The notes below the pieces were generated by a model that worked only from the letters and a program-made list of their open reading frames with translations, had not been told where the DNA came from and did not search any database. Positions 46,082 through 54,001 of a DNA stretch of 64,000 bases are shown here, piece by piece. The stretch comes from Rhodoblastus acidophilus (lineage in GTDB: Bacteria; Pseudomonadota; Alphaproteobacteria; Rhizobiales; Beijerinckiaceae): the NCBI RefSeq assembly GCF_900187365.1, contig NZ_FYDG01000003.1, positions 1 to 64,000 on the forward strand, given 5' to 3'. Numbering within the stretch: position 1 is the first letter of the stretch; the number at the start of each line of letters is the position of its first letter. The position numbers were made by a program, and so were the translations under genes.

Positions 46082-46756
46082 CTATCCCTGTGCGGCGGCC
46101 AGCCGCACCAGTTCGGCCAGATTGCGTGCGCCGGTCTTGCGCATGATCGAGGCGCGATGCGACTCCACCGTCCGCTCGCTGATGTCCAGCTCCACGCCGA
46201 TCATGCGATTCGACTTGCCCGCGAGCACGCGGTCGAGCACTTCATGCTCGCGTTTGCTCAACATGGACAGCCGGGCCTGCGGCGGCTCGCTCGGCGCCCG
46301 CGCCACCCGTTCGACGGCGGCGCGCACCGTCTCGATCAGTCGTTCCGCGGAAAAAGGCTTTTCGATAAAGTCGATCGCGCCCTTCTTCATGGCGTGGACG
46401 GCGAGCGCGACATCCTTGTGGCCGGAAACGATCACCACCGGCAGCGCCGCGCCGTTCTGCCGCAAGCGGGCCAGCACCTCGATGCCGCTGGATTCGGGCA
46501 TGCGCAGGTCGGTGATGACGCAGCCCGGGCCTTCGTACGGGTTCGATTCGAAAAAGGCGCGGGCCGACGGATAGCTCCGCGCCACGAAACCGGCGCCTTC
46601 GAGCAGCAGCTCCATGGCGTGGCGCACATCGGCTTCGTCGTCGATGACATGGACGACGGCTTGGACGCCGCCTTGGTTTTTCGTCGCCGCGCGCACGGTG
46701 TCGTGGTTCAGGCGCCAGGCCGCTGGCGGAGAAACCTTGATCGTTTCCGTACTCAT
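46082..46756 (-). CDS. FixJ-like response regulator (receiver + LuxR HTH)
   Basis: A 224-residue two-domain regulator. After a ~33-residue lead the receiver begins VVHVIDDEADVRHAMELLL; the phospho-Asp lies in CVITDLRMPESSG and the switch Lys in IEKPFSAERL. A LuxR-type HTH follows: LSKREHEVLDRVLAGKSNRMIGVELDISERTVESHRASIMRK. The FixJ/NarL-like form implies phosphorylation-driven DNA binding. There is no kinase gene next to it, but the KaiBC-associated hybrid kinase is 3.6 kb away. Confidence 0.93.
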   Translation of the reverse strand: MSTETIKVSPPAAWRLNHDTVRAATKNQGGVQAVVHVIDDEADVRHAMELLLEGAGFVARSYPSARAFFESNPYEGPGCVITDLRMPESSGIEVLARLRQNGAALPVVIVSGHKDVALAVHAMKKGAIDFIEKPFSAERLIETVRAAVERVARAPSEPPQARLSMLSKREHEVLDRVLAGKSNRMIGVELDISERTVESHRASIMRKTGARNLAELVRLAAAQG

Positions 46757-47145
46757 TCAGAAAAAATCCTTCCGTTGGAGCGCGCCGCCCCCTCGGCCCA
46801 AACGCGCCGCGCAATTTCAACGTCAGAGGCGTCTGCAGGTTCCGCTCAAGGCGTGCTGCGGTCTCTACGGAGTGGCGTGAAACGGACAAGCTCAAGCATC
46901 GCCGCGGCGCAATGCGGTTTCGTCATTGCGTGAACAGTCACGCTCAAGCTTTTCGGGAACTGCGGAATTGATGGGGGGTTCAATTTGGCGTAGTGAGCCG
47001 GTAAGATGTCATGGTTTTTATTTGGAATTATTGAAGATGGTTCGGGAAGATGCGTCGCGTGGGCGCGGACGGCCCACAGACATTGAACAGCCGACGAGCC
47101 TGAAGACGCCGACCCAGGGTCGGAATGCGGTGGAGTTTGGATTGC
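46757..47145. other. Divergent promoter region between two FixJ-like regulators
   Basis: 389 bp separate the two divergent regulator starts (46756 minus, 47146 plus). The stretch is AT-richer than the genes around it near 47000-47040 and should hold both promoters. No clear inverted repeat that could be a FixJ-type box was seen, and no coding frame is convincing. Confidence 0.5.
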
Positions 47146-47817
47146 ATGATCATCTATGTTATCGACGATGACGAAGTTGTCCGCCAATCTCTGGAAATCC
47201 TCTTGGCTGGAGAAGGTTTCGAGACGGAGGCTTATGCCTCGGCGGCGGAATTCCTCGCACGGGCGGACGCGCGGACGCGCGGCTGCGTGGTGGCCGACAT
47301 CCAATTGCCGGGCCTCAGCGGCCTGGACCTGATCTCGGCTCTGCGCGCGCGCGGCTTCACCCTGCCGGTGGTGGTCGTCACCGGCCATGGCAATCTCGCC
47401 CTGGCGGTGGAGGCGATGAAGCGCGGCGCCTCCGATTTTATCCAAAAACCTTATTCGGCGGACGCGATGCTCGCGGCGATCCGCGGCGCCTGCGAGAAGC
47501 AGGGCGAGATGGAGGCCGAGTCGCCCGACCTCGCCGCCACGCGCGAGGGCCTCGCCAAGCTGACTTCGCGCGAAAAGCAGGTTCTGCTCAAGCTCGTCAG
47601 CGGATTGCCCAACAAGATCATCGCCTACGACATGGGGCTGAGCGTGCGGACCGTGGACAGCCATCGCGCCGCCGTAAAAAAGAAGATGGGCGGCGGTAGC
47701 CTTGCCGAGCTGGTGCGCAAGTGCATCGCTGTCGGGCTGCTCGGCGCCGAATCCTCGTCGCAAACGCCGTCCCCCAGCAAACTCAACGCCAATTTGAAAG
47801 AGACTCGCGCGCGATAA
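47146..47817 (+). CDS. FixJ-like response regulator (receiver + LuxR HTH)
   Basis: A 223-residue regulator from ATG 47146 (GGAG upstream): MIIYVIDDDEVVRQSLEILLAGEGFE. Phospho-Asp in CVVADIQLPGLSGLD, switch Lys in IQKPYSADAML, then HTH LTSREKQVLLKLVSGLPNKIIAYDMGLSVRTVDSHRAAVKKK. It ends with a ~30-residue Ser-rich tail. It is 61 bp upstream of kaiC on the same strand and could be co-transcribed with the KaiBC operon, making it the best candidate output regulator. Confidence 0.93.
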   Translation: MIIYVIDDDEVVRQSLEILLAGEGFETEAYASAAEFLARADARTRGCVVADIQLPGLSGLDLISALRARGFTLPVVVVTGHGNLALAVEAMKRGASDFIQKPYSADAMLAAIRGACEKQGEMEAESPDLAATREGLAKLTSREKQVLLKLVSGLPNKIIAYDMGLSVRTVDSHRAAVKKKMGGGSLAELVRKCIAVGLLGAESSSQTPSPSKLNANLKETRAR

Positions 47818-47878
47818 TAGCGCAATATGATCAAAAATAGACGCAACGGAAGCCGGCAGGCATCGAGGGGCTTTTCAC

Positions 47879-49723
47879 GTGAACGCGCAGGCGCATAGGC
47901 TCGCCAGGACGCCATCCGGCATTGTTGGCTTTGACGAAATTACAGGCGGCGGACTGCCCACCGGGCGGTGTTCGCTGGTTTGCGGCGCCGCCGGCGCGGG
48001 CAAGACGCTGTTCGGCCTGACCTTTCTCGCCGAGGGCGCTCTGCGGTTCGGGGAGCCCGGCGTTTTCATCTCGTTCGAGGAGACCGAGGCGGAACTTGCG
48101 GCCAATGTCGCTTCGCTCGGCTACGATCTGGAGCAGCTCAGAGCGGCCAACCAGTTAGCCGTCGATTACGTCCGGGTCGAGCGCGCCGAGATCGCCGAGA
48201 CCGGCGATTACGATCTGGATGGCCTGTTCCTCCGCATCGGCCACGCCATCCGCACCGCCGGGGCCAGGCGCGTCGTGCTCGATACGCCCGAAAGCCTGTT
48301 CTCCAGTTTTTCCAACGCGGCGATCCTGCGCGCCGAACTGCGCCGGCTGTTCGGCTGGCTCAAGGCGCAGGGCGTCACATCCGTCATCACCGCCGAAAGC
48401 GGCGGCGGCGAGCTGACGCGCCACGGCCTTGAGGAATATGTCTCCGATTGCGTCATCCTGCTCGATCAGCGCGTGCTCGATCAGGTGGCGACGCGGCGGC
48501 TGCGCGTGGTCAAATATCGCGGCGCCTCGCATGGCGGCGACGAATATCCGTTCCTGATCGACGAGACCGGCGTGTCCGTGCTGGCGCTGGCCTCGCCGCA
48601 ACTGGCGCATGACGTTTCAACCGAGCGCGTCCGCACCGGCGCGCCGGCGCTGGACGACATGCTTGGCGGCGAGGGGTTCTGGCGCGGGTCCTCCATTCTG
48701 CTTTCGGGCGAGGCGGGAACGGGCAAGACCACGTTCGCCGCCCAATTCGCGGCGGCGGCCTGCGCGCGCGGCGAAAAGGCGGTCTATTTCGCCTTCGAGG
48801 AAAGCCCGCAGCAGGTCGCGCGCAACATGCGTGCGGTCGGGATCGACCTGCAGCGCTGGATCGACGCCGGACTGCTGCATTTTGTCGCGAGCCGCCCGAG
48901 TTCTTCGGGGTTGGAGACGCATCTCGCGCGCATGTGCCGCGAGGTTGAGCGTTTCGCGCCGGACGTGGCGGTGGTCGATCCGCTGTTCAAGCTCGGGGGC
49001 GACGTCGGCGGCATGCTGCTGCGCCTGATCGATTATTTCAAGGGCCGGGGCGTCACCGCCCTGCTGACCTTCGCCGAATCGACCGCCGAGACGCCCGATC
49101 ACGCCGGGGTCTCGTCGCTGATGGACGCATGGCTCCAGGCGCGCATGACCGAGGCCGGCGGCGAACGCCAGCGCGGCCTGTTGATTCGGAAGGCGCGCGG
49201 AATCGCTCATTCCCACCAGATCCGGCGGTTCGAGCTGACCGCGCAAGGCGTCAGGCTGCTTCCCGCCGCCCCCGCGCCGCGTCTCGCCGCGCCTTCGGCG
49301 GCTTCGCCCGCGCGGTCGGTCGTCAATAGCGTGGCGGTTCCTGGCGTGGCGGTCCAGGGCTCTGCGGTCCAGGGCTCTGCGGTCCAAGGCTCTGCGGTCC
49401 AAGTTTCTGCGGTTTCTGGCTCTGCGGTCCCCAACTCTGCGGTCCCGAGCTCTGCGGTTTCTGGCGCGGCCAAGGATGCGGGGAGGGAACCCGCGGCGGA
49501 CGCCGCGGAGGTCGAGCGCCGCCATGCGGCGGAGGCCCGCAAGCGCATGATCGAGATCCGGCGCCGCGAACTCGGGGCGCGGATCGCCACATTGCAGTCG
49601 AAGCTGGCGCAAAGCGAACGCGAGGCCGACATGCTGTTCGCGCGCCAGCAGGGCGCCGAGGAGGCAGCGGCCCAGTTCCGGCGCGAGGCGGCCGAGGCGG
49701 GGCGTCACCGGGGGCGCACGTGA
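47879..49723 (+). CDS. kaiC: KaiC-like double RecA ATPase/autokinase with repeat linker and coiled-coil tail
   Basis: A 614-residue KaiC. CI: GFDEITGGGLPTGR, Walker A GAAGAGKT (36-43), catalytic Glu pair FEE (67-68). CII: GAPALDDMLGGEGFWRGS, Walker A GEAGTGKT (277-284), Glu pair FEE (307-308). The phosphorylation site region is GVSSLMDAWLQ: Ser412-Ser413 replace the cyanobacterial Ser431-Thr432, as in KaiC2-type proteins. Beyond residue ~465 comes a tandem pentapeptide linker and a basic, Glu/Arg-rich helix, likely coiled coil, to the end. GTG start with GAGG upstream. First gene of kaiC-kaiB-kaiB-kinase; no kaiA. Confidence 0.93.
   Translation: MNAQAHRLARTPSGIVGFDEITGGGLPTGRCSLVCGAAGAGKTLFGLTFLAEGALRFGEPGVFISFEETEAELAANVASLGYDLEQLRAANQLAVDYVRVERAEIAETGDYDLDGLFLRIGHAIRTAGARRVVLDTPESLFSSFSNAAILRAELRRLFGWLKAQGVTSVITAESGGGELTRHGLEEYVSDCVILLDQRVLDQVATRRLRVVKYRGASHGGDEYPFLIDETGVSVLALASPQLAHDVSTERVRTGAPALDDMLGGEGFWRGSSILLSGEAGTGKTTFAAQFAAAACARGEKAVYFAFEESPQQVARNMRAVGIDLQRWIDAGLLHFVASRPSSSGLETHLARMCREVERFAPDVAVVDPLFKLGGDVGGMLLRLIDYFKGRGVTALLTFAESTAETPDHAGVSSLMDAWLQARMTEAGGERQRGLLIRKARGIAHSHQIRRFELTAQGVRLLPAAPAPRLAAPSAASPARSVVNSVAVPGVAVQGSAVQGSAVQGSAVQVSAVSGSAVPNSAVPSSAVSGAAKDAGREPAADAAEVERRHAAEARKRMIEIRRRELGARIATLQSKLAQSEREADMLFARQQGAEEAAAQFRREAAEAGRHRGRT
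49328..49467 (+). repeat. 15-bp tandem repeats inside kaiC (GSAVQ linker)
   Basis: About nine 15-bp units based on TCTGCGGTCCAAGGC encode imperfect pentapeptides: VAVPG, VAVQG, three GSAVQ, then VSAVS, GSAVP, NSAVP, SSAVS. The three central units are nearly identical at DNA level, so the array can probably expand or contract by slippage in steps of five residues. It joins the CII ATPase domain to the coiled-coil tail. Confidence 0.9.
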
Positions 49724-50013
49724 CCGGCGCCGACGCCGAGCGCTGGCTGCTCCGGCTGTATATCGCCGGGGGATCGCCGCGTTCGCAGGCGGCGCTTGCC
49801 AATCTGAAGGGGGTTTGCGACGAATATCTGCCGGGCCGCTACGAACTGGAGGTGATCGATCTCGTCGCGCATCCCGAGCGTGCGCGGGCCGATCAGATCG
49901 TGGCGGTGCCCACGCTGGTGCGCCGGTTGCCGCCGCCGATCACCAAGATCATCGGCGATTTGTCGATGAAAGAGCGGGTCATCGTGGCTTTGGATATTGA
50001 AATGACAGATTGA
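49720..50013 (+). CDS. kaiB: KaiB-like protein 1
   Basis: A 97-residue thioredoxin-like KaiB: LRLYIAGGSPRSQAALANLKGVCDEYLPGRYELEVIDLVAHPERARADQIVAVPTLVRRLPPPITKIIGDL, all family landmarks including AVPTLVRRLPPP. GTG start overlaps the kaiC stop (GTGA), so it is coupled to kaiC. KaiB binds the CI ring of phosphorylated KaiC after a fold switch in cyanobacteria; whether this one switches fold is unknown. Confidence 0.93.
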   Translation: MTGADAERWLLRLYIAGGSPRSQAALANLKGVCDEYLPGRYELEVIDLVAHPERARADQIVAVPTLVRRLPPPITKIIGDLSMKERVIVALDIEMTD

Positions 50014-50024
50014 CGGGAGGGCGA

Positions 50025-50336
50025 ATGGAGGGGCGGGAGGCTTATCGGCTGCTGCTGTTCGTGAGCGGCGCCACGCCGCGCTCGATGCGCGCCGTCGCCG
50101 CCGTGCGCAACCTTTGCGACACGCGTCTTCCCGGCGCCTATCGGCTCGACGTCATCGACGCGTTTCTCGATCCGGTCCTCGCCCGCGATCACCAGATCCT
50201 CGCCCTTCCGACCTTGCTGCGGCTGTCGCCCGGACCGACGAAAATGTTTGTCGGCGACATCAGCGACCCCGTGCGGCTGGCGGCCGGGCTCGGCCTGTCG
50301 TGGCGGCCGGTGATCGCCCCGGGAGCGCCGTCATGA
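50025..50336 (+). CDS. KaiB-like protein 2
   Basis: A 103-residue second KaiB: YRLLLFVSGATPRSMRAVAAVRNLCDTRLPGAYRLDVID, then ILALPTLLRLSPGPTKMFVGDISDP. It differs from the first in the LRLSPGP turn and a longer C-terminus. ATG 50025 has GGGAGG 4-5 nt upstream. Its stop overlaps the kinase ATG (ATGA). A pair of diverged KaiB proteins suggests separate partners, for example KaiC and the kinase N-terminus. Confidence 0.92.
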   Translation: MEGREAYRLLLFVSGATPRSMRAVAAVRNLCDTRLPGAYRLDVIDAFLDPVLARDHQILALPTLLRLSPGPTKMFVGDISDPVRLAAGLGLSWRPVIAPGAPS

Positions 50337-53300
50337 GCGAGAAGCGCGCCGCTCCCCTCGCCAAAATCCCGGCGACGGAGGAAGCCGTCGAAACGCTGCA
50401 GGCGCTGGTGATGGGCGAGGCCGACGCGCTCGTGGTGGAGACGGCGGCCGGACCGCGCGTCTTCACGCTGCGCGGCGCCAACGAGCCTTACCGGACGCTG
50501 ATTGAGCGGATGTCGCAGGCGGTGGTGGCGCTGCGGGACGGGGTGGCGGTCTATTGCAACGGCGCCCTGGCGCGCGCGCTGGGCCGGGAAACCCTGATCG
50601 GCGCGCGACTGGCCGATCTGGTCGTCGAGGCGGATCGCGAGCGGTTCGCCCGGATGCTGCGCGTGGGCGAGACATGCGACGTCGCCATCGAGGCGGCGCT
50701 GCGCGGGCCGGCCGGCCGGCCGCTGCCCACGCATGTCGCCGCCGCGCCCTTCATGTTCGACGGGGCGCCTTGCGTCGCCTTGATCGTCACGCCGCTCGAC
50801 GAGATCGCGTCGTGGCGGACGGCGCGCTTCGGCCTGGCTGAAAGCGAACGGCGGTTCCGGCTCGCCCTCGCCAATTCCCCCAGCGTGGTGTTCGAGCAGG
50901 ATCTGGACCTGCGTTACACCTGGGTGTTCAATCCCAAGCCCGGCCATCCCGACCCGATCGGCCTCACCGACGACGAAATTCTCGACCCGGCCTTCGCGGC
51001 GCCCCTGGCGGCGATCAAGCGCAAGGTCATCGCCACCGGCGAGCCGACCCGCGCCGAAGTGCAGACCGCCTTGCCGGGCGGCCCGGTCGAGACCTGGGAT
51101 TTGTGCGTCGAGCCGCGCCGCGATCCGACCGGCGCGATCATCGGCGTCATTTGCGTCGCGATTGATTTGACCGAGCGCAAGCGGGCGGAGGAGGCGCTGC
51201 GCGAGAGCGAGACGCGTTTCCGCATGCTGACCGAGGCCACGGCGCATGTCATCTACCGGATGAACGCCGACTGGACGGAACTCCGGCGTTTCAAGGGCGC
51301 CGAGTTCCTGGCGGATGTCGAACACGTGGACGCCGCCTGGCTGAACCGGTTCCTGCCCGCCGACGAGCACGCGCGCGTTCTCGCCGCGATCGACGAGGCC
51401 ATCCAGCGCAAGGGCGTGTTCGAGCTGGAGCATCGCGTCAAACGGATCGCCGGCGGCATCGGCTGGATCTGTTCCCGCGCCGCGCCGCTGCTGGATGCGC
51501 ATGGCGAGATCAAGGAATGGTTCTGCTCGGCCAGCGACATCACCGCCCGCAAGACGGCGGAAGAGGCGCTGCGCGAGAGCGAGGCGCGCAAGGAATTGCT
51601 GCTCGGCTTGGTCGACGCCTTCAAGACCCTGACCGACGCCAATGACATTGTCGCCCTGGCGGCCGAGAAGCTGGGCCGCCGGCTCGGCGCCGACCGGGTG
51701 ATTTTCGCGGAGGTGGATCCGCGCGACGATTTCGTCACCATCGCGCGCGAATGGAACGACGGGAAAATGCCGAGCTATATCGGCGTGCACCGCCTGACGG
51801 ATTTCGGCCCTGTCGTCGCCTATTTGCGGTCGAACGAGCGCGTCATGGTTCCGAATGTCGCCACGGACCCGCGTCTCGCCGCGCCGGAGGTCCAGGCGCG
51901 CGCCCGCCTCGCGGAGATCGGCGCTTTCCTGAGCGTTCCGCTGGTCGCCGGCGGCCGGCTGGCCTGGGTCATGTCGGTGCATCAACGCGCGCCGCGGGCG
52001 TGGAGCGCCGCCGATCTCGCGTTGGCGGAGGAGGTGGCCGAGCGCACCTGGGCCTGGGCCGAGCGCGCCCGCGCGGAGCAGGCGTTGCGCGAGGGCGAGT
52101 TGCGCATGGCCGAGGCGCAGGCCAGCGCTGGAATCGGCACCTGGTGGTGGGACGTGCCCACCGGCCGCACCCAGTTCAATCCCTGCTTCTACAAGCTCTA
52201 CGGGCTGCAGCCGCAGCCGGACGGCTTCGACGATTTCCTGGCGCTGGTCCATCCCGAGGACCGCGTCGGGCTGCTGGCGTGCGCGGACGAGGCGCTCGGC
52301 GGCCCCGGAGGCTATGAGGCGGAATTCCGGCTGCGTCGCGCCGACGACGGCGCCGAACGCTGGTTCCGCTCGCGCGTGCGCACTTCCTTCGACGTCAGCG
52401 GGCGCCCGTCCCGGGTGAGCGGCATTGTCCAGGACATCACCGAGGCCAAGGCCGCCGAGCTGGCGCTGCGCGAGAGCGAGGCCGCGCTGCGCCGCGTCCA
52501 GCGCCAGTTGCGCCATGCCGCCGATGCGGCGCGGCTCACTTATATGGAGTTCGACCTCGAAAACCAGCGGCTGGAGCTGGCCGACAATCACGCCGAGGTC
52601 ATGGGCTTCCTGCCGGAGATCGCCGACGCCAGCGTGGATTCGTCCTTCGAGGGCCTGCTCGGCCATGTCGTCGAGGCCGACCGGTCGAAACTGCTGGAGG
52701 CCCGTGACGCGTTCTACGCCGGCCTGCCGTCGGAGCCGTTGCGCTACCGGGTGATGACCGACGACGGCGAGCGCTGGATCGAAAGCCGGTGGAGCGCCGA
52801 ATGCGACGCGGACGGGCGCCCCTCCCGCGTATTCGTCAGCCAGCTTGACATCACCAAACTCGTCCAGGGCACCGTCGCGCTGGCCGCCGCCAAGGCCGAG
52901 GCCGAGCGCGCCAATCTGGCCAAATCCAGTTTTCTCGCCGCCGCCAGCCACGATCTGCGCCAGCCGGTGCAATCGCTGATGCTGCTGCTGCCGCTGATCG
53001 AGCGCCATCTCGACAGCACCCCCAAGGCGGCGCAGGTTCTTGGCCTGATGAACAAGGCGCTTGGGGGGCTCAATGTGCTGCTGACCGCGGTGCTCGACGT
53101 GTCGCGATTGGACGCCGGCGGCGTGGAGCCTACGGTCGAGACCGTGTCGCTGCGCGGATTGTGCGAACGTCTGGCGGCCGAATACGATTCCAAGGCGGAC
53201 GCCGCCGGCCTGCACATGCGGGCGCGCACGCTCGATCTGCACGCCCGCACCGATCCCGCGCTGCTGGAGCGCGTGTTGCGCAACCTGATCGAAAACGCGC

Positions 53301-54001
53301 TGCGCTACACCCGCCAGGGCGGCGTGCTGCTGGCGATGCGCCGGCGCGGGCAGGGCGTGCGCATCGACGTCATCGACACCGGGATCGGCGTCCCCAAGGA
53401 AAAACAGGCGGAGATTTTCCAGGAATTCACCCAGCTCGACAATCCCGGCCGCGATTTGACGCAAGGGCTGGGACTCGGGCTGGCCATCGTCGCCCGCGTC
53501 TCCGCCCTGCTGAACCTCGATGTGACCGTGTCGTCGCGGCCGGGGCGCGGCTCACGTTTTTCGGTCTGGCTGCCGGTGTCGGCGCCGGCGGCGCCCAAGC
53601 CGGCCCAGATCGTCAGGGCCGAGAGCCGCGGCGGACTGGTGCTGGTGATCGAGGACAATCAGATCTTGCGCCTCGCCATCGAAACCATCCTGAGCGAAGG
53701 CGGCTATGACACGCTCGCCGCCGCGAGCGGCGAGGATGCGCTCGATCTGGCGCTGCGGGCGCGTTCCATCGACGCCATCGTCACCGATTTCCGGCTCGGC
53801 GCCGGTTTAAACGGGGTCGAGGCGGCGCAGGAGATCGAATGTCGTCTGGCGCGGCCGGTCGCCAAATTGCTGCTCACCGGCGAAGCCGCCATCTCCGACT
53901 TCGACCATGCGGATCTGCGAGGCTTCGAATTCCTTTACAAGCCGATCAGCGCCGAAAAGTTGCAGGCCAAGCTGGCCGCCGCGCTGGAGTCGCTTCGGTG
54001 A
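50333..54001 (+). CDS. KaiBC-associated multi-PAS/GAF hybrid histidine kinase
   Basis: A 1222-residue soluble sensor. The N-terminus (VVETAAGPRVFTLRGANEPYRTLIERM) is the lead seen in KaiBC-linked kinases. Then in order: PAS (~60-160), PAS/PAC (~165-285), PAS/PAC (~290-415), GAF (~430-590), PAS/PAC (~600-730), PAS (~740-860), HisKA with phospho-His873 in SHDLRQPVQ, HATPase with NLIENALRYT and GLGLGLAIV, and a C-terminal receiver with Asp1152 in IVTDFRLG. No membrane segment. Coupled to the second kaiB by 4 nt. The receiver could feed back on the kinase or relay to FixJ-like partners. Confidence 0.93.
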   Translation: MSEKRAAPLAKIPATEEAVETLQALVMGEADALVVETAAGPRVFTLRGANEPYRTLIERMSQAVVALRDGVAVYCNGALARALGRETLIGARLADLVVEADRERFARMLRVGETCDVAIEAALRGPAGRPLPTHVAAAPFMFDGAPCVALIVTPLDEIASWRTARFGLAESERRFRLALANSPSVVFEQDLDLRYTWVFNPKPGHPDPIGLTDDEILDPAFAAPLAAIKRKVIATGEPTRAEVQTALPGGPVETWDLCVEPRRDPTGAIIGVICVAIDLTERKRAEEALRESETRFRMLTEATAHVIYRMNADWTELRRFKGAEFLADVEHVDAAWLNRFLPADEHARVLAAIDEAIQRKGVFELEHRVKRIAGGIGWICSRAAPLLDAHGEIKEWFCSASDITARKTAEEALRESEARKELLLGLVDAFKTLTDANDIVALAAEKLGRRLGADRVIFAEVDPRDDFVTIAREWNDGKMPSYIGVHRLTDFGPVVAYLRSNERVMVPNVATDPRLAAPEVQARARLAEIGAFLSVPLVAGGRLAWVMSVHQRAPRAWSAADLALAEEVAERTWAWAERARAEQALREGELRMAEAQASAGIGTWWWDVPTGRTQFNPCFYKLYGLQPQPDGFDDFLALVHPEDRVGLLACADEALGGPGGYEAEFRLRRADDGAERWFRSRVRTSFDVSGRPSRVSGIVQDITEAKAAELALRESEAALRRVQRQLRHAADAARLTYMEFDLENQRLELADNHAEVMGFLPEIADASVDSSFEGLLGHVVEADRSKLLEARDAFYAGLPSEPLRYRVMTDDGERWIESRWSAECDADGRPSRVFVSQLDITKLVQGTVALAAAKAEAERANLAKSSFLAAASHDLRQPVQSLMLLLPLIERHLDSTPKAAQVLGLMNKALGGLNVLLTAVLDVSRLDAGGVEPTVETVSLRGLCERLAAEYDSKADAAGLHMRARTLDLHARTDPALLERVLRNLIENALRYTRQGGVLLAMRRRGQGVRIDVIDTGIGVPKEKQAEIFQEFTQLDNPGRDLTQGLGLGLAIVARVSALLNLDVTVSSRPGRGSRFSVWLPVSAPAAPKPAQIVRAESRGGLVLVIEDNQILRLAIETILSEGGYDTLAAASGEDALDLALRARSIDAIVTDFRLGAGLNGVEAAQEIECRLARPVAKLLLTGEAAISDFDHADLRGFEFLYKPISAEKLQAKLAAALESLR

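Follow-up and report, generated by a model that had tools for sequence, protein, structure and literature searches.

Known Kai systems and the Rhodoblastus locus

Cyanobacterial SasA is a KaiB-like domain fused to a HisKA kinase, and RpaA is its regulator partner. The locus described here is a KaiA-less kai operon with two kaiB genes and a hybrid histidine kinase gene, accompanied by two FixJ-like regulator genes, in a 64,000-nucleotide stretch of Rhodoblastus acidophilus DNA (assembly GCF_900187365.1, contig NZ_FYDG01000003.1, positions 1 to 64,000; the window). Operons ordered kaiC-kaiB-kinase are in print for Rhodopseudomonas palustris and Rhodobacter sphaeroides, and KaiC-dependent daily timing has been shown in R. 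palustris (PMC4794148). R. sphaeroides KaiC autophosphorylates without KaiA and assembles into a dodecamer through a C-terminal extension; KaiB and the ATP/ADP ratio bring about its reset (PMC10076222). The occurrence of kaiC beside signalling genes has also been reported more generally (PMC3164672).

The Rhodoblastus locus resembles that of R. sphaeroides in lacking KaiA, in its kaiC-kaiB-kinase order, in the serine pair of KaiC and in the KaiC C-terminal extension (PMC10076222). The R. sphaeroides Kai kinase, on plasmid pRSKD131A, carries the same N-terminal motif as the kinase studied here, but that locus has one KaiB, an HWE kinase and no FixJ genes in the annotated flank. The R. palustris kaiC-kaiB-PAS/histidine kinase operon is similar in gene order, in the longer KaiC tail and in belonging to a purple phototroph, whereas one KaiB is named for it and Rhodoblastus has two KaiBs and the FixJ pair (PMC4794148). 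Bradyrhizobium BRADO1478-1481 (kaiC, kaiB, histidine kinase, receiver) likewise ends in a kinase and a response regulator, but the receiver is CheY-like and there is one KaiB (PMC3899966). Ramlibacter pairs of kaiC and a following kinase, whose N-terminus has been likened to SasA/KaiB, differ in having no KaiB gene (PMC3164672). Plasmid p3 of Pararhizobium qamdonense, known from annotation alone, has tandem KaiBs between KaiC and a kinase-motif gene (recorded as 'response regulator'), but no FixJ pair in its annotated flank. Beyond the published KaiA-less operons, and not found in open-access papers, are the KaiB paralogue, the kinase motif, the reciprocal losses and the FixJ-kinase pairing described below; searches of the open-access literature found neither the tandem KaiB lineage nor any Kai genes of Rhodoblastus described. 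The locus names candidate parts through which a KaiA-less timer could pass its state to transcription (the distal KaiB, the kinase N-terminus and two regulators), and sister species that have kept one arm alone, either KaiC or KaiB with the kinase, provide a natural experiment.

KaiC and the type of Kai system

The source genome (4.7 Mb, 98.5% complete) carries fixJ-B, kaiC, proximal kaiB (kaiB1), distal kaiB (kaiB2) and the kinase gene in that order on the plus strand, with fixJ-A divergent. A 4-bp overlap lies at each of the three junctions kaiC/kaiB1, kaiB1/kaiB2 and kaiB2/kinase, and fixJ-B, read from the ATG at 47146, ends 61 bp before kaiC. A sequence-only reading of the window had described this tight series ending in a 1222-residue kinase, the FixJ-like gene 61 bp upstream on the same strand and another divergent to it, and each of these was recovered, the divergent gene (46082-46756) falling outside the range 47146-54001 that the reading gave. 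It had also taken the system to be KaiA-less, which held: the KaiA model PF07688 found no match in the source genome and did match Synechococcus elongatus, the positive control. Both KaiB copies of the genome lie in this operon, and the domain matches of the operon proteins are far beyond chance.

KaiC passes the NCBIfam model PRK09302 (604 bits; cut-off 408), and the closest solved proteins are R. sphaeroides KaiC (8dba, 8db3) at 566 bits, with S. elongatus KaiC at about half that score (282 bits). Both Walker A sites (K42 T43, K283 T284) and the EE pairs E67/E68 and E307/E308 are present, and the phospho-site pair S412/S413, in GVSSLMD, aligns with GLSSLMD of 8dba. A tree of 34 KaiCs places the three Rhodoblastus proteins within the R. 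sphaeroides-type group, on a separate branch. Sequence comparison thus supports assignment of the locus to the KaiA-less Kai systems of R. sphaeroides type. The tandem-KaiB state is scattered on the same tree and requires a minimum of four gains or losses, as would be expected of an old tandem that was lost repeatedly. The KaiC tail is an extension of about 150 residues, composed of a linker encoded by a 15-bp repeat and then a conserved charged stretch, in which a simple heptad count showed only a slight enrichment at the most favourable of seven offsets (13/23 vs 18/55). Between the source genome and Rhodoblastus sphagnicola the C-terminal stretch has a non-synonymous rate (dN) of 0.074 and a ratio to the synonymous rate (dN/dS) of 0.11. 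KaiC of R. acidophilus MO lacks the extension; what looked like an internal stop in its gene is the regular end of the gene.

Two KaiB lineages

In a tree of 68 KaiBs, 46 proximal or single KaiBs group together at 99/96 support, and 16 distal KaiBs are split at 96/80 from the whole remainder, which also holds six further KaiBs. The proximal and distal labels each need one change in 100% of 200 bootstrap trees, and the proximal KaiB groups with single KaiBs, that of R. sphaeroides among them. The distal KaiB therefore appears to be an ancient paralogue lineage, distinct from the proximal KaiB, on a tree built from a short alignment and without a known root; whether the distal group is strictly monophyletic hinges on where the root is placed.

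Two profiles, one built from 16 distal KaiBs and one from 16 proximal KaiBs, were compared with solved chains. The distal profile matched two SasA N-domains at 28.8 and 27.9 bits; the proximal profile matched one of them at 17.9 bits and the other not at all at an E-value of 1, and with both profiles the best thioredoxins reached approximately 21-23 bits. In the converse direction, the SasA family model matched 16/16 distal KaiBs at E 0.01 (best 2.3e-10); on this operon it matched the distal KaiB at 4e-6 and gave no match at 0.01 for the proximal KaiB. By these scores the distal KaiB appears nearer than the proximal KaiB to the KaiC-binding domain of SasA. The separation is nevertheless a matter of degree, since 12/16 proximal KaiBs also match the SasA model at E 0.01 (best 4.9e-5).

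The predicted structure of the distal KaiB has a thioredoxin-type order of elements (predicted local distance difference test, pLDDT, 83), and its top five matches are fold-switched KaiBs and the Legionella KaiB 4kun (TMt 0.68-0.89), with SasA from rank 12. The model of the proximal KaiB is undecided (pLDDT 62), although by E-value ground-fold KaiBs rank first. Two points count against a sharp contrast: the pLDDT values of 83 and 62 come from alignments of 4 and 17 sequences, respectively, and so are not strictly comparable, and the TM-score of the proximal model is in fact higher to the switched fold (~0.56-0.60) than to the ground fold (0.42-0.44). The predicted difference in fold between the two KaiBs is consequently suggestive only.

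The distal KaiB resembles cyanobacterial SasA as a KaiB-like putative reader, with a predicted thioredoxin fold, ahead of a HisKA kinase. In Rhodoblastus, however, this putative reader is a separate gene that overlaps the kinase gene by 4 bp without fusion to the HisKA kinase, the kinase is a PAS/GAF hybrid, and the neighbouring regulators are FixJ-like rather than RpaA. Being encoded separately, the distal KaiB is not a SasA and only possibly works like one. A fusion of distal KaiB and kinase was suspected in one genome (G129) and rejected, KaiB and kinase lying in separate frames; none was found.

The hybrid kinase

The sequence-only reading had given the kinase about five PAS domains, a GAF domain and a receiver, and had called it soluble. 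Pfam places a PAS domain at residues 53-145, two PAS_4 and two PAS_3 stretches and a GAF domain at 436-571, followed in the C-terminal half by HisKA (863-929), HATPase (974-1082) and REC (1103-1214). The count of about five PAS domains is fair, and a soluble protein is plausible, since hydrophobicity over 19 residues peaks (Kyte-Doolittle mean 1.7) at residue 1048, inside the HATPase domain. The proposed phospho-acceptors were found where predicted, His873 in the motif SHDLRQP and Asp1152 in TDFRL, and the acidic pair and lysine of the receiver are intact as read from the sequence. Against the NahK/ErcS hybrid kinase family NF041832 the kinase core scores 298 bits (cut-off 400), which makes it a related core and not a member.

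The first ~75 residues follow one pattern in 22 aligned Kai-linked kinases. When the 67-residue motif of a relative was used as query, 13 of 72,556 plasmid records matched, each with kaiB within 400 bases (annotation inspected for two), and all 13 are among the 15 plasmid records with a KaiB match; nine of the 13 are Cereibacter sphaeroides, leaving about five independent cases. The motif of the Rhodoblastus kinase itself found one plasmid record, adjoining kaiB, and a search with kinase residues 15-146 in the source genome gave one other match, weak, at 34%. These comparisons support the kinase as part of the Kai module, its N-terminus apparently being specific to Kai-linked kinases.

The type of kinase core varies with the KaiB state, HisKA cores occurring in 11/15 and HWE cores in 4/15 tandem loci whose core could be read, compared with HWE in 6/6 single-KaiB loci (Fisher p 0.004, a test that ignores the relatedness of the loci). 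In this count, the kinases of R. acidophilus MO (G006) and of a further Rhodoblastus genome, G001, were taken as HisKA from their 60-63% identity to this kinase, and one locus (L221) was not countable. The fifth PAS region (residues 715-850; 52475-52882) is 25% identical to its G006/G001 counterpart, other measured stretches being 57-88% identical, and appears to be a swapped sensor domain.

The FixJ-like pair

Both regulators consist of REC and GerE domains with FixJ as the best family match, and both are FixJ-like only, scoring 227 bits (FixJ-A) and 218 bits (FixJ-B) against the FixJ equivalog PRK09390, with a cut-off of 255. FixJ-A has counterparts at the same place in G006 (71%) and G001 (69%). 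Within the genus, counterparts of FixJ-B at 75-76% occur only in these two genomes, adjoining the kinase; the next-best relative (60%) is in genome G007, where the 18 kb mapped around it contain no Kai gene. The pair is present at the locus in 3/3 genomes of the genus that carry this kinase, so that it goes with the kinase and not with KaiC. On conservation of the FixJ genes in relatives, a check named by the sequence-only reading, the pair is at the locus in three of the four Rhodoblastus genomes bearing the region, and none of the 19 loci mapped outside the genus has a full-length FixJ-like gene adjacent.

Rhodoblastus is likeliest a case of local rewiring, with a kinase core of the genus type behind a Kai-reading front, together with two FixJ-like regulators. 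Recruitment of core and FixJ genes together from a local kinase-FixJ pair is not supported: of six other hybrid kinases in the source genome, five have no FixJ-like match in the mapped flank and one (L238) has only a distant partial one.

Reciprocal losses within Rhodoblastus

The gene for a siderophore-interacting protein (SIP) that flanks the locus is present in four of 11 Rhodoblastus genomes, and in all four the SIP-PadR-AEC block adjoins part of the Kai locus; the other seven genomes have no KaiB match and no close KaiC. The complete locus is carried by the source genome and R. acidophilus MO. In the latter the SIP gene (L043:14320-15092) is in two frames, compared with one frame in the other three.

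In G001, kaiC is a remnant in which 36 N-terminal and 12 C-terminal codons can be aligned and Walker A is gone; its 61-codon frame is open and ends in an ATGA overlap with kaiB. The best match to KaiC elsewhere in that genome is weak and RecA/DnaB-like (41% over 75 residues, E 1.5e-8). The frames of KaiB1, KaiB2, the kinase and both FixJ genes are all open. Between G001 and G006, by a simple method applied to few sequences, the kaiC remnant gave dN 0.233 and dS 0.276, a ratio of 0.84 over 48 codons, and dN/dS was 0.26 for the kinase, 0.16 for fixJ-A, 0.18 for fixJ-B, 0.22 for proximal kaiB and 0.28 for distal kaiB. Most of the circuit thus stayed constrained in this genome. On the G001 branch relative to the G006 branch, dN was higher for proximal kaiB (0.071 vs 0.038) and fixJ-A (0.051 vs 0.025), with no rise for the kinase, distal kaiB or fixJ-B. 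The stretch separating fixJ-B from the kaiC remnant in G001 contains an inverted repeat (L045:9849-9892) with perfectly matching 20-bp arms and a loop of 4 bases.

R. sphagnicola DSM 16996 has KaiC only, with no KaiB, no such kinase and no FixJ gene at the locus; the best fixJ-B match in its genome is 42%, and for fixJ-A the search was confined to the locus. In this KaiC the SS pair has become YA and the CII EE pair EA, and a 10-residue insertion precedes the TGDYDLDG stretch, which we take to be the KaiB-binding loop. By the same simple counts the protein is still constrained (dN/dS 0.34 and 0.41), most of all in the C-terminal stretch (0.11). Two of the four region-bearing genomes have therefore dismantled the circuit in opposite ways.

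Kai loci in other genera

The class sample gave KaiB (PF07689) matches in 19/385 genomes, 14 of them above the cut-off; the order sample gave 41/397 (38 above) and the phylum sample 38/398 (37 above). Outside the genus, 19 loci from a subset of these matches were mapped, 13 with tandem KaiBs (L215-L221, L143-L146, L122, L124) and six with a single KaiB. All 13 tandem loci begin with KaiC and have a PAS kinase gene immediately downstream of the distal KaiB; two of them (L221, L145) reach the contig end within the kinase gene, and one (L218) has the kinase in two frames. With the source genome, G006 and G001 included, the kinase gene directly follows the distal KaiB in 16/16 tandem loci. The split kinase of L218 (1073-2819, genome G625) runs over two overlapping frames and may be broken or misassembled. 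A receiver-bearing gene follows the kinase in L122 and L143; L221 has a FixJ-like gene ~2.7 kb away, and in L228 an adjacent divergent gene is alike only in its DNA-binding part.

Further afield, 20 of 52 loci, mostly from Ignavibacteriota and Bacteroidota, have a REC-LuxR-type regulator as the immediate neighbour of KaiC(-KaiB); the 52 are those with KaiC in a listed frame among 58 (L085-L142) in an Ignavibacteriota-rich set, and the 20 include two short pieces (L102, L128), contig-end loci being counted too. All ten KaiC-adjacent regulators scanned are REC + GerE proteins. The nine compared are 46-78% alike and only 17-21% identical to the Rhodoblastus FixJ proteins, and form a family of their own. 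This family recurs beside KaiC in Ignavibacteriota, Bacteroidota and Calditrichota (L087, L095, L097, L108, L109, L111, L117, L129, L136 and others). Since it is unrelated to the FixJ pair, Kai systems may have acquired REC-LuxR partners on several occasions, which favours the general idea of a path from Kai to a regulator and speaks against a common origin.

A putative output circuit and its alternatives

The locus is read here, at slightly less than even confidence, as a Kai timer of the R. sphaeroides type that works without KaiA and has a dedicated two-component output. KaiC would autophosphorylate on S412/S413, tracking the ATP/ADP ratio through the day and night of a phototroph, and the proximal KaiB, in the switched fold, would bind the CI ring and speed ATP hydrolysis and reset. 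The distal KaiB, seemingly locked in the thioredoxin fold, would act as a SasA-type reader of KaiC in the form of a separate subunit, docking on the Kai-specific N-terminus of the kinase and coupling the kinase to KaiC. The kinase would then autophosphorylate on His873 and hand phosphate to both FixJ-like regulators, with its own receiver (Asp1152) as a brake or an intermediate. Each binding, phosphotransfer and timing step we infer from features that are observed, namely the gene order, the intact active sites, the two KaiB lineages, the shared kinase N-terminus, the FixJ genes staying with the kinase, and the constraint on KaiB-KaiB-kinase-FixJ where kaiC has been lost. A wider form of the proposal, that many KaiA-less operons contain such a 'split SasA', with the distal KaiB as a fold-locked reader docking on the kinase N-terminus, and that the system comprises two separable Kai units, is tentative and somewhat doubtful; in Rhodoblastus, the reader-kinase arm and the KaiC arm each survive alone, in different species, as would two separable signalling units.

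Several observations weigh against this output circuit. The kinase core is closer to the orphan hybrid kinases found in its own genus (45-56%) than to the Kai kinases of other genera (27-36%, best pieces over the core), so that the output may have been rewired. The scan of the proteins revealed no HPt domain. The idea that the FixJ pair is a Kai partner conserved outside the genus was rejected, none being adjacent and full-length in the 19 alpha, gamma and delta loci. Of the 52 more distant loci, just four have a similar kinase as the following gene, as counted by an insensitive BLAST search with one kinase, so that a neighbouring kinase is not general for this type of KaiC. Finally, the kinase arm of G001 persists without KaiC, which may therefore not be the main input. 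The FixJ output proposed by the sequence-only reading is thus upheld in part, by the pair staying with the kinase and by the REC-LuxR regulators recurring near KaiC, and is limited by the confinement of the FixJ genes to the genus. That reading had missed that the second KaiB is an ancient, separate paralogue and that the FixJ genes remain with the kinase in a genome that has lost kaiC.

The persistence of the G001 arm bears on an alternative that is unlikely yet deserves weight, in which the KaiBs and kinase form a stress or redox sensor independent of KaiC, with KaiC as an optional input dropped by some species. It would account for the reduction of kaiC to an in-frame remnant (ratio 0.84) beside constrained KaiB, kinase and FixJ genes (0.16-0.28), and the Legionella KaiB 4kun, a close match of the distal model, was solved as thioredoxin-like. 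KaiC is present, however, in 13/13 tandem loci outside the genus, and the remnant test covers 48 codons of a gene whose age of loss is not known. A second alternative, which we consider improbable, makes the kinase the input, its PAS/GAF domains sensing redox or light to adjust KaiC and the FixJ proteins controlling only transcription of the kai operon from the shared intergenic region. A kinase by kaiBC in R. sphaeroides has been proposed to relay a redox signal to KaiBC (PMC5520375), and the divergent FixJ genes and the operon share one presumed control region; on the other hand, the presence of a receiver, and of two DNA-binding regulators whose phospho-acceptor sites are intact, speaks for output, and the FixJ genes survive in G001 without kaiC. 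That the FixJ genes are unrelated chance neighbours is very improbable, for although they are not beside kai in other mapped genera and the 60% FixJ-B relative of G007 is in a genome without a KaiB match, they are adjacent, divergent and constrained in three species, are gone from the locus together with KaiB and kinase in a fourth, and have REC-LuxR counterparts that recur beside KaiC in other phyla.

Feature coordinates and further observations

The positions of the operon genes and their parts within the window are collected in Table 1. A simple scan of the intergenic region between the FixJ genes found no sigma-70-like promoter.

Table 1. Features of the Rhodoblastus kai locus, numbered from the first nucleotide of the window
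Feature	Position	Strand	Basis or remark
FixJ-like response regulator A (REC + GerE), divergent	46082..46756	-	Pfam, NCBIfam FixJ
Intergenic region between divergent FixJ genes, presumed control region	46757..47124		Alignment with G006 and G001
FixJ-like response regulator B (REC + GerE)	47125..47817	+	Alternative start ATG 47146
kaiC	47879..49723	+	GTG start, 614 aa, CI + CII; two KaiC domains, E 8.7e-102
15-bp tandem repeat, 7.3 copies	49349..49458	+	AVQGS-like linker between CII and C-terminal stretch
KaiC C-terminal stretch, residues 541-614	49499..49720	+	Presumed coiled coil
Proximal kaiB (kaiB1), canonical type	49720..50013	+	KaiB E 2.8e-24
Distal kaiB (kaiB2), divergent paralogue, SasA-like	50010..50336	+	KaiB E 2.1e-17
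PAS/GAF hybrid histidine kinase, C-terminal receiver	50333..54001	+	1222 aa
N-terminal Kai-kinase motif, residues 12-76	50366..50560	+	Common to 22 aligned Kai-linked kinases
His873, presumed HisKA phospho-acceptor	52949..52951	+	
Asp1152, presumed REC phospho-acceptor	53786..53788	+	

In genome G125 a KaiB is followed by a 1131-aa kinase (L153:7065-10704) with no KaiC match in the mapped 16 kb, possibly another KaiC-free KaiB-kinase arm. In three genomes of the phylum sample (G864, G882, G826) and in L234, two KaiBs lie 1-2 kb apart and are not adjacent; in L234 a receiver-bearing gene stands between them, upstream of a more distant type of KaiC. The source genome also encodes a second KaiC (L049:806-4370, contig C40; 504 aa, 31%), followed by a histidine kinase with no KaiB, a pair that resembles the KaiC-kinase pairs described in Ramlibacter (PMC3164672).

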